A stretch of DNA of 64,000 nt from Phycisphaerales bacterium (lineage in GTDB: Bacteria > Planctomycetota > Phycisphaerae > UBA1845). The stretch lies in assembly GCA_020852275.1 (NCBI GenBank), contig JADZBE010000020.1:62001-126000 (forward strand), in the 5' to 3' direction. The notes below the pieces were generated by a model. That model saw only the letters and a program-made list of their open reading frames with translations. It searched no databases and was not told where the DNA came from. The translations under genes were made by a program, and so were the position numbers. Below, one piece after another: positions 35,079 through 52,586 of this stretch (the stretch's first letter is position 1; every line of letters begins with the position of its first letter).

Positions 35079-35195
35079 ACCTATCCCGAAACCGAGGGAT
35101 CAGATCGTGTCCGAATGTCAACGCGTGCGAACTCTCTGCGAGTTCGAGACTTCGCGCGGGCTGAAGCCCGCGGCTCGGGGAGTTCTGGGATAGGT
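35079..35195. repeat. MITE-like palindromic element after hslV
   Basis: 117 bases beginning one base after the hslV stop, with 9-base terminal inverted repeats ACCTATCCC (35079-35087) and GGGATAGGT (35187-35195). Inside are a hairpin (35128-35146, CGAACTC/GAGTTCG) and the 30-base core TTCGCGCGGGCTGAAGCCCG... at 35151-35180, which also occurs at 43343-43371 and inside alaS. No target duplication was seen. Confidence 0.65.
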
Positions 35196-42797: not shown

Positions 42798-43465
42798 GGC
42801 CTCTCCCGTCATTCGTTGCCGACCTGCACCCTCTATAACGAACAAGCCTGGGGTTTCTTGGAAACCTCGCTCCCTTTCATACGCTTCGGGAAGGTGCCGG
42901 TTCCCATCAGATGAAGGGCGCGTCAAGGGCGTCGGCCGTTCGGCAGGCGTCGGCAGGGCAGGGGATGCCGTCGAATCGAAATCGACGGACAAATCAGGCG
43001 AGCGAAGTTTCAGCCAAGCGACGGGCGGATCAAGCTTGCCGGCAGGGCGAGCCGGCGGAGTTGTGCTTGACGGCAGGATACAGGGACCGGCTCGACGCTT
43101 TCAGCCGGTAGAAACGACGGCGCGCTCGCGGCCGGGTCCGGCCGTGAGCGCAGGCGCCGTCCATCCATGTCGCTGCGATGTCCCTGAAGCGCCCGCCCTC
43201 GGCGGAGGATCGGGCAGGCGCCGGGATTTCTCGGTGCAGTCCTCGCTCCCCGTGCGATCAACCTCGTCGGACTGCAAGACCCTGCGAAAGCGGCGTCTCC
43301 AAATTGCTATTCGCGATCTCGCGGCGCACCGCCGACCTGATTTTCGCGCGGGCTCAAGCCCGCGGCTCAGGGAGCGCTCCACACTCACGAATATCGATTT
43401 AGAGCCGCGGGTCCGATGGAAAGCATTGGTTCCCTCGCGGTCCCGGATCAGTCATGGAACAGCGT
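42798..43465. other. Repeat-containing intergenic region
   Basis: 668 bases without a convincing gene. It holds a copy of the TTCGCGCGGGCTxAAGCCCG core (43343-43371, one change in the loop) and a relaxed copy of the GAGCCGCG repeat (43401-43440) just downstream of the gdh gene end. The rest, next to the sigma gene start, has no recognised promoter. Confidence 0.6.
43343..43371 (+). repeat. REP-like core copy
   Basis: TTCGCGCGGGCTCAAGCCCG followed by CGGCTCAGG. Compare 35151-35180 (GGCTGAAGCC stem, CGGCTCGGG) and the copies in alaS. Confidence 0.75.
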
Positions 43466-49292: not shown

Positions 49293-52200
49293 TCAGTGCA
49301 GCCGCTCAGCCAGCCATGAAACCGACGCCTCCAGCACCTTCGGCAGCCCGGTCGCATCCGTGCCGCCGCCCTGCGCGAGGTCCGGGCGGCCGCCGCCCTT
49401 GCCCCCGACGAGCGGAGTGACTTCCTTGATGAGGTCGCCCGCCTTGATGCCGCGTTCGACCACGGTCTTGCTCATGCCCGCCATCAGCGTGACCTTGCCT
49501 TCCTCGCCCACGCAGGCGAGCAGGACGGCGCTCGCGTCGGTCTTCTGGCGAATCCAGTCGATCGCGCCGCGCAGCGCGTCGGGCGGCGCGGGTGGAACCT
49601 CCGCCACGATGATGGTGACGCCGCTTGTTGTGAATGCCGAATGCTGAATGCTGAATGCTGAATGAGCGGATGCGGGTCCCTCGGGCTTCATCGCCTTTGA
49701 CGCACTCAATTCCGCATTCCGCATTCCGCATTCCGCATTCGCCAGCAGCTCTGCCACGCGCTGCATCACCGCATCGCCGGACGCGGCGACCTTTTGCTTC
49801 TCGAGTTTCTTCGCCTTCTCCGCGAGCTGGTCGAGCTGCTCGCGGATCTTGTGGCGATCCAGGACGGGGATGACCGCGTCGGAGAACTTCTTCTGTGCCG
49901 CGACGAGTCGTGCATGAAAATCCGCTTCCGGCGCGTCCCACAGTGCTGCGACTTGATCGCGCAGCGTCGCCGCCCGCGCCCGCGCGTCGCGTGCAGTCTG
50001 GGCGGTCATGCCGACCACGCGGCGGACGCCCTTGGCGACCGCCTCCTCGGAAACGATCACGAAATCCTCGATCTCGCCCGTCCGCTTGACGTGCGTGCCG
50101 CCGCAGAACTCGACGGAGTAGTGCATCCACTCCGGGTTCGCCGGCGACTTGAGCAGCCAGTCGCCCTTGCCCGCCGCCCGCGCGTCCGCCTCGGTTACCG
50201 GCACGCCGATGGAGACCACGCGGACTTTCTCCGGGTATTTCTCGCCGAACACGGCGCGCAGCGTGCTGACCTTCCGCGCCACGGCCTGGTCGGTGAAATC
50301 CTCCTCGCGCGGCGCAGCGTACACCGGATGATCCGCGCGAATCTGCATCCTCACATAGTCTTCAATGCGCCCAAGGTCTTCCTCGGAAAGCGCCTTGTTA
50401 TGAGAAAAGTCAAACCGCGTCTTCTCGGCATCGACGAGCGAGCCCTTCTGCTGCACATGCGGCTGCACGCGCTCTTCCGGCGAACACAACGCCTCGCGCA
50501 ATGCCCAGTTCAGCAGGTGGGTGGCCGTGTGGTTTTGCTGGATGGGGTGGCGATAATTCCTGTTGACAATCGCCTCACACTCTTCACCTTGACCCTGAAT
50601 CCATCCGTGTTCGACAACGCCTTCGTGAAGTATTACATCTCCCAGCCAGGAAGTATCGCGAACCACGCGGGTGACGCGTACTGCGCCATTGGCTGTTCTT
50701 ATTTCACCAATGTCGGAGACTTGACCTCCCTGCTCCGCATAGAAAGGAGTGCGACCAAGTCTCAGCAGGACGTGCTGACCGACGTGTGCATTGCGGTCAG
50801 GGGGACGATAATTCCACGTTCCCGTCAGGGAAGTATTCAACTTCAGGTCATCACCATACTTATGGGAATCGTCTGCTCGCGCCTCGTCGCGAGCACCTTG
50901 GATCGCTTGTTCTCTGAGTTTCTGATTGTCCGCAGAGTCGGCTTTGGAATCGATGGCTCGAGCTTTCTTCCGCGCCTCTTCCATCAACCGTTCGTACTCG
51001 GCGATGTCCACAGTCAGTCCGCGTTCCTCGGCCATCTGCTGGGTGAGGTCGATGGGAAACCCATAGGTGTCGTGGAGCCTGAAGGCGTCCTCGCCGGAGA
51101 TGACGCTGTGATCAGAGCCGCGATCCGCAATCGTGACGTCCGCTCCCTTGGGGTTGCGGCTCTGTAAGGCTCGCTCCGCCGCCTCATCGAACAACTTCAT
51201 TCCCCGATCCAACGTCTTCAAAAACGACGCCTCTTCGTCGCGGATGATTTCAATCAGATGTTTGACATTCTTCCCGCCGTGCGCGGTGCGCAGTTCGGGA
51301 AACGCATCGCCCATGTGCGCGACCAGCGGCTCCACCAGGTCGCAGATGAACGGCTCGTGCATGTTCAAATACTGACGCCCGAAGCGGACGGCGCGGCGAA
51401 GGATGCGGCGCAGGACAAACCCGCGCCCCTCGTTGCTCGGCATCGCGCCGTCGGTGATGGCGAAGGTCAGCGCGCGGAGGTGGTCGGCGATAACGCGGTA
51501 GGACACATCCATCATCACCTGATCCCGAGCCGCGGGCTTCAGCCCGCGCGAAGGTTCGGGCGCGTGTTGAACTCCGCAATCAGGAGAGGTCGCGCAGGCT
51601 GAAGCCTGCGACGCGGGGAGGGTTCCCATATACGCGGGCGCGCCCGTGCGCCGGTGAATCGCCTCGAAGATCGGCGTAAACACGTCCGTGTCGTAGTTGG
51701 TGAACCGGCCGAGTCTTCCGGCGGCGAGACCTTGAAGCACCGAGCACAGCCGCTCGAAGCCCATGCCCGTGTCCACGTGCTTGGCGGGCAGGGGGGTCAG
51801 CTTGCCGTCGCTGCCGCGGTTGAACTGGATGAAGACGAGGTTCCAAATTTCCATCACCCGCGCGTCGCCGGCGTTGACGAGTTGTCCGCCGCTGCAATCG
51901 GGCGTCAGGTCGATGTGGATCTCGCTGCATGGGCCACACGGACCCGTGTCTCCCATCTCCCAGAAGTTGTCTTTCATCGAGCCGGGGTGGACGTGCGACG
52001 GGTGGATGTCGGTGAGGGAGATCCACAGGTCGCGGGATTCATGGTCCGGAGGAAGAGATTCCGCCTCTCGAACTGAGGACTTCGGTCCGCGCGGAGTTTC
52101 CTCAATCCGGGTTTCTTCATGGTGACGAAGATTCGCTCGATCTGAAGATCGCGGCTCGGTGCCTCCAAAATACGTCGCATGCAGCCGCTCCTTGGGGATG

Positions 52201-52586
52201 CCCCAGACTTTCGTGAGCAGCTCCCACGCCCACTGGATGGCCTCCTTCTTGAAGTAATCGCCGAAGGACCAGTTGCCGAGCATCTCGAAAAACGTGTGGT
52301 GATAGGTGTCCTTGCCCACGTCGTCGAGGTCGTTGTGCTTGCCGCCGGCGCGGATGCACTTCTGGGTGTTGGCGGCGCGCGTGGGCAGGCCCGGGGTAGC
52401 GCCCTGCCACCTGTCCACGTCGGCGGCGTGCTGCCCGAGGAAGATGGGCTTGAACTGGTTCATGCCCGCGTTGGTGAAGAGCAGCGTGGGGTCGTCAAAC
52501 GGGACGACCGGGGAAGACGGCACGATGACGTGCTGCTTGCCCCTGAAAAAGTCGATGAACTGCTTTCGAATTTCGCTGGAAGTCAT
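49293..52586 (-). CDS. alaS: Alanyl-tRNA synthetase with three in-frame repeat-derived insertions
   Basis: 1097 residues; E. coli AlaRS has 876. The class II aminoacylation core (FKPIFLGQ, DNFWEMGDTGPCGPCSEI, IADHLRALTFAITDGAMPSNEGRGFVLRRILRRAVRFGR) is intact. So are the editing domain with its zinc site (HTATH and FCGGTH) and the C-Ala domain (GGKGGGRPDLAQGGG). Three stretches have no counterpart in the family: about residues 145-178, about 320-357 and about 950-988. Their DNA consists of palindromic or simple repeats seen elsewhere between genes. All keep the frame and add no stop. They sit in surface-loop positions between conserved blocks, so the enzyme is probably active (inference). Confidence 0.92.
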   Translation of the reverse strand: MTSSEIRKQFIDFFRGKQHVIVPSSPVVPFDDPTLLFTNAGMNQFKPIFLGQHAADVDRWQGATPGLPTRAANTQKCIRAGGKHNDLDDVGKDTYHHTFFEMLGNWSFGDYFKKEAIQWAWELLTKVWGIPKERLHATYFGGTEPRSSDRANLRHHEETRIEETPRGPKSSVREAESLPPDHESRDLWISLTDIHPSHVHPGSMKDNFWEMGDTGPCGPCSEIHIDLTPDCSGGQLVNAGDARVMEIWNLVFIQFNRGSDGKLTPLPAKHVDTGMGFERLCSVLQGLAAGRLGRFTNYDTDVFTPIFEAIHRRTGAPAYMGTLPASQASACATSPDCGVQHAPEPSRGLKPAARDQVMMDVSYRVIADHLRALTFAITDGAMPSNEGRGFVLRRILRRAVRFGRQYLNMHEPFICDLVEPLVAHMGDAFPELRTAHGGKNVKHLIEIIRDEEASFLKTLDRGMKLFDEAAERALQSRNPKGADVTIADRGSDHSVISGEDAFRLHDTYGFPIDLTQQMAEERGLTVDIAEYERLMEEARKKARAIDSKADSADNQKLREQAIQGARDEARADDSHKYGDDLKLNTSLTGTWNYRPPDRNAHVGQHVLLRLGRTPFYAEQGGQVSDIGEIRTANGAVRVTRVVRDTSWLGDVILHEGVVEHGWIQGQGEECEAIVNRNYRHPIQQNHTATHLLNWALREALCSPEERVQPHVQQKGSLVDAEKTRFDFSHNKALSEEDLGRIEDYVRMQIRADHPVYAAPREEDFTDQAVARKVSTLRAVFGEKYPEKVRVVSIGVPVTEADARAAGKGDWLLKSPANPEWMHYSVEFCGGTHVKRTGEIEDFVIVSEEAVAKGVRRVVGMTAQTARDARARAATLRDQVAALWDAPEADFHARLVAAQKKFSDAVIPVLDRHKIREQLDQLAEKAKKLEKQKVAASGDAVMQRVAELLANAECGMRNAELSASKAMKPEGPASAHSAFSIQHSAFTTSGVTIIVAEVPPAPPDALRGAIDWIRQKTDASAVLLACVGEEGKVTLMAGMSKTVVERGIKAGDLIKEVTPLVGGKGGGRPDLAQGGGTDATGLPKVLEASVSWLAERLH
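49623..49742. repeat. Simple-repeat hairpin element inside alaS (insertion 3)
   Basis: Left arm of about four 9-base units GAATGCTGA, right arm of about four units CGCATTCCG. The two arms are imperfect inverted complements separated by about 50 bases. In alaS it is read as NAECGMRNAE...HSAFSIQHSAF. Confidence 0.8.
51515..51630. repeat. REP-doublet element inside alaS (insertion 2)
   Basis: Contains two cores in opposite orientation: 51524-51552, identical over 29 bases to the intergenic core at 35151-35180, and 51589-51618 (GTCGCGCAGGCTGAAGCCTG...), the same family with a changed stem. Between them are about 36 bases. Read in alaS as SQASACATSP...EPSRGLKPAAR. Confidence 0.85.
52056..52160. 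repeat. REP-like element inside alaS (insertion 1)
   Basis: 52132-52159 matches the core family with paired stem changes (GATC-TGAA-GATC in place of GGGC-TGAA-GCCC), flanked by the conserved TTCGC and GCGGCTCGG. It is in the opposite orientation to the 51524 copy, so both strands of the element are tolerated in the reading frame. Read in alaS as EPRSSDRAN... Confidence 0.75.

Follow-up and report, generated by a model that had tools for sequence, protein, structure and literature searches.

How does an essential gene come to carry repeat elements within its reading frame, and on what scale does this happen? The question is raised by alaS, the alanyl-tRNA synthetase (AlaRS) gene in a 64,000-nucleotide stretch of the genome of a Phycisphaerales bacterium (contig JADZBE010000020.1), the whole of which we refer to as the window. 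AlaRS of E. coli consists of 876 residues; the window AlaRS is about 220 residues longer.

Repeat-derived insertions in alaS

The gene is an uninterrupted open reading frame in which the domains tRNA-synt_2c, tRNA_SAD, and DHHA1 all score above their cut-offs. It yields the only alaS match in the 5.05-Mb genome, and a search of that genome found no second copy. Four in-frame insertions in the gene derive from repeats; three are of the REP type, and one is a hairpin of 7-base repeats (Table 1). A first-pass annotation, made from the sequence, had rightly recognized in-frame repeat elements in alaS, but had counted three, missing the REP doublet that forms insertion 3.

Table 1. Positions of alaS, its repeat-derived insertions, and related intergenic REP copies in the window
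Feature	Position	Strand	Description
alaS, alanyl-tRNA synthetase	49293-52586	minus	1097 aa, single copy; conserved AlaRS columns kept
Insertion 1	52068-52157	minus	residues 144-173; starts with REP core CCGAGCCGCGATCTTCAGATCGAGCGAA at 52132-52159
Insertion 2	51524-51617		about residues 327-352; two REPs, inverted (51524-51553, 51590-51617); inverted repeat I1; REPIN-like
Insertion 3	51113-51164		about residues 475-489; REP doublet CAGAGCCGC...GCGGCTCTG; inverted repeat I7
Insertion 4	49632-49740		residues 950-982; hairpin, arms of tandem 7-base repeats
Intergenic REP copy	35150-35179	minus	30 nt identical to insertion-2 core; gap between predicted genes
Further REP copy	43342-43371	minus	same family, loop TTGA; between predicted genes

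Insertions 1 to 3 show the features of REP and REPIN elements, namely a palindrome of 20-40 nt, a conserved foot, many dispersed copies, and frequent arrangement in inverted pairs. As had been proposed, insertion 1 belongs to the same family as the REP of insertion 2, with compensatory changes in the stem: foot and loop are the same, and the stem is changed yet still complementary (CCGAGCCGCGATCTTCAGATCGAGCGAA). Insertion 4 had been described as built of 9-base repeats; its units are 7 bases long (GAATGCG and GAATGCT). Folding of the DNA gives z values of -3.2 for insertion 3 and -4.6 for insertion 4.

The four insertions add 30, about 20-26, 15, and 33 residues, respectively. Together they account for about half (about 100) of the roughly 220 extra residues; the remainder is scattered over other length differences. 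In an AlphaFold model based on 38 sequences, pLDDT drops below 50 at residues 146-172, 327-347, 484-490, and 963-980, which are the four insertions; five more short low-confidence stretches lie outside them, and most of the AlaRS core is modeled confidently. On the simplest reading, the window AlaRS would be a working enzyme with added disordered loops.

The repeat family and its sites in relatives

The 18-nt REP core has nine matches in the window, where 0.76 are expected, and none of 100 shuffled sequences reached that number. The first-pass annotation had noted that the core of insertion 2 is identical to an intergenic element; indeed, 30 nt of it (51524-51553) are the reverse complement of the copy at 35150-35179. 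Genome-wide, the strict pattern GCNGGCTNNAGCCNGC occurs 30 times and its reversed counterpart not at all. We also took a census of repeats in 1.2 Mb of the window's own genome (G000), using our own gene-calling model and leaving aside the unassigned k-mer class, into which ordinary protein repeats are mixed. Intervals assigned to named repeat families numbered 215 between genes, 24 within predicted genes, and 8 at gene edges. As 81% of this sample is predicted to be coding, genes contain fewer of the named repeats than their share of the sequence would predict, yet some do occur there. Genes with internal repeats in this genome include dnaE, a second dnaE-like gene, glyS, metG, and clpB (NCBIfam names). 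The heptamer arrays are dispersed as well (26 matches, overlaps included), and in the same 1.2-Mb sample several other palindromic and heptamer families are dispersed, such as CTGGATTCCCGCCTGCGCGGGAATGACG and TGGCACCGGTTGGAAACCGGTGCCA. The idea that REPs are unusually free of stop codons in all frames was rejected, their open frames being as many as those of random DNA of 65% GC. REPs are therefore no more open than random GC-rich DNA, and their survival in frame depends solely on selection.

Alignment of AlaRS from relatives, the check suggested at the outset, found the insertion sites empty or differently occupied. A nucleotide alignment shows that the genus mate G002 lacks insertion 1, and in the AlaRS alignment only G000 and G019 have 10 or more residues at its site. 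At the site of insertion 2, the nucleotide alignment shows no REP in G003 and a different REP pair in G002. At the site of insertion 3 (residue 474), the window has its REP doublet, and G002 has REPs with a Y1 transposase between them, which suggests that a REPtron may enter where REPs already lie, or that REPs may remain after one has left. Insertion 4 recurs, modified and with an extra REP, in G001 and G003, and its length varies among genus mates. The insertions sit where AlaRS varies in length among relatives. Since genus mates lack them or differ at the sites compared, the alaS insertions are not ancient domains, and the claim that an essential planctomycete gene, uninterrupted and present in a single copy, has absorbed repeat elements in frame is borne out. 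Separately, a tandem repeat of the GNRQQATGNRQQ type lies in frame near residue 180 of LeuRS in G003 (L182) and G002 (L183).

Transposases within alaS and other housekeeping genes

A whole HUH (Y1) transposase lies in frame within alaS of twelve related genomes, eight of which emerged from the AlaRS comparison and four (G504, G043, G497, and G500) from a later search; the window AlaRS has the short elements only. The sites, in window numbering, are residues 331, 474-493, and 884. AlaRS frames in relatives reach 1686 codons, largely because of these in-frame domains. The longest, in G048 (L051), is a single frame with two different Y1 transposases, at sites 474-493 and 884. The AlaRS tree requires at least three changes at site 331 and at least three at site 474, with the second copy in G048 coming on top of these, and the same loops have been occupied recurrently. 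In G002 (L048), the C-terminal part of alaS shifts to another frame and a TGA follows near the contig end; this copy may be damaged or mis-assembled or contain a sequencing error, or the frameshift may be real. Most genomes compared are metagenome assemblies; G365 and G442, which carry transposases in pglX and valS, are single contigs. Among viral contigs, none with the Y1 family was confirmed.

The two alaS-embedded domains that were scanned both exceed the Pfam cut-off for Y1_Tnp, and for a single-sequence model of one embedded Y1, with a mean pLDDT of only 60, the top 30 structural matches are transposases of the IS200/IS605/REP type. The embedded domains share with TnpA-Y1 class 3 (PMC6006769) the motifs NHVH, W[TA] (W is followed by S in two copies), and Y----Q (YV---Q), and a profile of about 155 aa.

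REPs also flank many embedded transposases. Scanning both strands of the 330-nt flanks of 17 embedded copies for the GAGCCGCG foot revealed REPs on both sides in seven of the nine alaS copies checked. Five of these (G048 at site 884, G033, G014, G020, and G018) have forward REPs on the left only and reverse REPs on the right only; G016 has the same arrangement with one extra forward REP on the right, and in G002 both orientations occur on both sides. The flanks of the G030 copy and of the site-474 copy in G048 contain no match to the foot. In valS, G442 displays the clean forward-left, reverse-right pattern and G272 the same pattern with one extra forward REP; both orientations occur on both sides in valS of G003 and pglX of G365. 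No match was present within 330 nt of the copies in valS of G022 and G446, leuS of G036, and the methyltransferase of G019. TnpA-Y1 class 3 is described with a CnGA foot in its 5' flanking structures; here the foot is CCGA or CAGA in the seven alaS copies with a match, and ACGA or GCGA at some of the valS and pglX copies. The REP family of the window itself flanks the Y1 transposase in valS of the genus mate G003, a Y1 subfamily to which G000 has only weak matches.

Further hosts were named by scanning the chimeric proteins with NCBIfam and Pfam profiles. Transposases reside in valS of G003, G022, G442, G272, and G036 with scores above a cut-off, in a partial valS frame of G038 below it, and, recognized by motif only, in valS of G446. 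Other hosts are leuS (G000 and, by alignment, G003 and G036), ileS (five genomes), purH (eight scanned, more seen by sequence), and gcvP (two), as well as three methyltransferases: the BREX-2 gene pglX in G365 (L299, Y1), an MmeI-like gene in G019 (L223, Y1), and a DNA methylase in G009. In G031, the transposase precedes the MutS start in a frame that runs on into MutS, and may be an N-terminal extension of MutS, not an insertion. A weak Y1 match (L357) was set aside, its transposase lying at the end of a long frame and not embedded in it. The best 14 matches to one Y1 subfamily among 114 genomes all fall in frames of at least 600 aa.

The RAYT-type (TnpA-REP) copies in leuS, ileS, gcvP, and purH match the profile NF047646. 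Two of the seven RAYT-type matches in G000 lie inside leuS (a 1291-aa frame) and purH (a 942-aa frame); the former scores 93 bits against a threshold of 80, and the latter 78.2, just below it. GDTDLRDVPxPQV repeats adjoin the transposase in this leuS (L181, C26), and GTGFQPV/HRLETGA peptides adjoin that in purH (L369, C2). The Pfam profile of purH is repeatedly split at about model positions 131-134, a region in which two transposase classes occur. An 898-aa purH frame of G468 (L374) contains no recognizable transposase.

Embedded and stand-alone transposases differ in their gene boundaries. Of 25 stand-alone Y1 genes, 19 have an ATG no more than 30 codons upstream, compared with 3 of 19 embedded ones (Fisher p = 0.0002), a set that includes two copies of less certain status (L235 and L226). 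Stand-alone genes end at a stop soon afterwards, whereas the frame around an embedded Y1 has no stop until the long frame ends. As most embedded transposases thus lack a start and a stop of their own, they could be produced only as a domain within the enzyme that hosts them. The HUH and tyrosine columns are invariant in eight aligned alaS domains (54-74% identical to the first), and all nine alaS-embedded copies contain the HuH motif. For the alaS-embedded Y1, dN falls far short of dS wherever the latter can be estimated, and differences at third positions dominate. In leuS of G000 and G003, third positions of the transposases differ in 85 of 133 cases (64%), more often than those of LeuRS itself (43-46%), a contrast that favors separate insertions into a single loop. 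This pair weakens dN/dS as proof that selection acted once the copies were in place, since they may have diverged before they were inserted.

Origin and consequences of the insertions

We consider it probable, at about 80%, that permissive loops of enzymes receive REP elements and whole REPtrons time and again, and that those in frame are kept; a transposase acquired in this way would be made only within the enzyme. For the window alaS, REP hairpins at three sites and a heptamer hairpin would have landed in variable loops of AlaRS and would have been kept because they are in frame and free of stops; their translation would give disordered loops in a working enzyme encoded by a single gene copy. 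On a small scale they would exemplify a broader process at work in this planctomycete order (Phycisphaerae), in which REPtrons (REP, tnpA, and inverted REP) would enter permissive loops of long housekeeping enzymes whole and in frame. We infer that transposition, and not recombination alone, placed the insertions; REPs already present in a loop would act as landing pads for REPtrons, and the enzymes are presumably active and unprocessed. Judging by the sequences, the cell would have to build insertions of mobile DNA into its enzymes. Whether the HUH transposases have become residents of a recurrent set of essential enzymes (alaS, valS, leuS, ileS, purH, and gcvP) seems to us evenly balanced; here REPtrons would move in, lose start and stop, be expressed only with the host, and still be catalytically competent to spread REPs.

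The invariant catalytic columns, the low dN relative to dS, and the recurrence of the same loops of the same enzymes would also be expected if the embedded transposases were domesticated domains that serve the host enzyme, for example in nucleic-acid binding or autoregulation, with the REP peptides as linkers. The presence of the domain is patchy, however, with the changes on the AlaRS tree given above and with genus mates of G002 that are without it; one purH loop holds transposases of different classes, and the leuS copies show that sequence divergence may predate insertion. We therefore regard domestication as rather unlikely. Local slippage or duplication of low-complexity sequence, without mobile elements, would account for the tandem repeat of insertion 4 and its variable length among genus mates, but not for the 30 nt that insertion 2 shares with a distant intergenic copy, and neither inverted pairs nor whole transposase modules are expected from it. 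The heptamer arrays are themselves dispersed, and slippage as the source of the alaS inserts appears improbable. Least credible is the removal of the inserts before the enzyme works, at the RNA or protein level, in the manner of introns, inteins, or bypassing. Some inserts are so large that removal would ease their tolerance, yet inserts that are removed need not be in frame and free of stops, as these are, and the inserts fall where AlaRS of relatives varies in length. An Rfam search of the window alaS region found no intron or ribozyme, and its only two matches were below threshold and judged to be chance; no intein family occurs among the Pfam matches of the scanned proteins.

The insertion of repeats and transposases into permissive loops has several known relatives. 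Di Nocera et al. (2013, PMC3733652) described REPs inside genes of other bacteria, single or in inverted pairs; the hosts include uvrA, dnaE/dnaE2, and tRNA synthetases, and genes for replication, repair, or tRNA-related functions are favored. The alaS inserts are likewise short palindromes in such genes, single or paired; however, the REPs of that study are tagged GTAG or CGTC, whereas the foot here is mostly C[C/A]GAGCCGCG and the clade also has in-frame transposase modules. The analogy with Rickettsia palindromic elements drawn in the first-pass annotation is apt, as those too are palindromic, lie in frame in protein genes, and encode added loops. The likeness is one of behavior only: the lineage is another, the elements here are linked to HUH transposases, and most copies are intergenic. 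With their GAGCCGCG foot, inverted pairs, and link to Y1, they fit more closely among the REPs of the HUH/TnpA-Y1 (RAYT) type. REPtrons have been described as separate genes (PMC6006769, PMC8266576), and the latter source states that there is no evidence for mobility of tnpA-REP. The copies reported here, in contrast, lie in frame in housekeeping enzymes, mostly without a start or stop of their own. Inteins, too, bring a selfish, nuclease-like domain into the reading frame of essential enzymes, but no splicing domain was found here, the sites are length-variable loops, and the product is apparently retained. REPs in frame within genes have been known since 2013; whole in-frame REPtrons appear to be what is new. 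We found no literature report of housekeeping genes or tRNA synthetases that harbor a REPtron or a transposase domain, preprints and most subscription papers lying outside the search.

For annotation, such chimeras call for caution, as they can be mistaken for fusions or pseudogenes. The spread of REPs and transposases, the activity of a synthetase-fused transposase, and the gain of domains through insertion of mobile elements all become testable. Essential enzymes appear to tolerate both short REPs and whole transposase domains, repeatedly and at the same loops. If HUH transposases have indeed become residents of such enzymes, the embedded lineage would be a non-splicing counterpart of inteins as well as evidence that tnpA-REP genes move.
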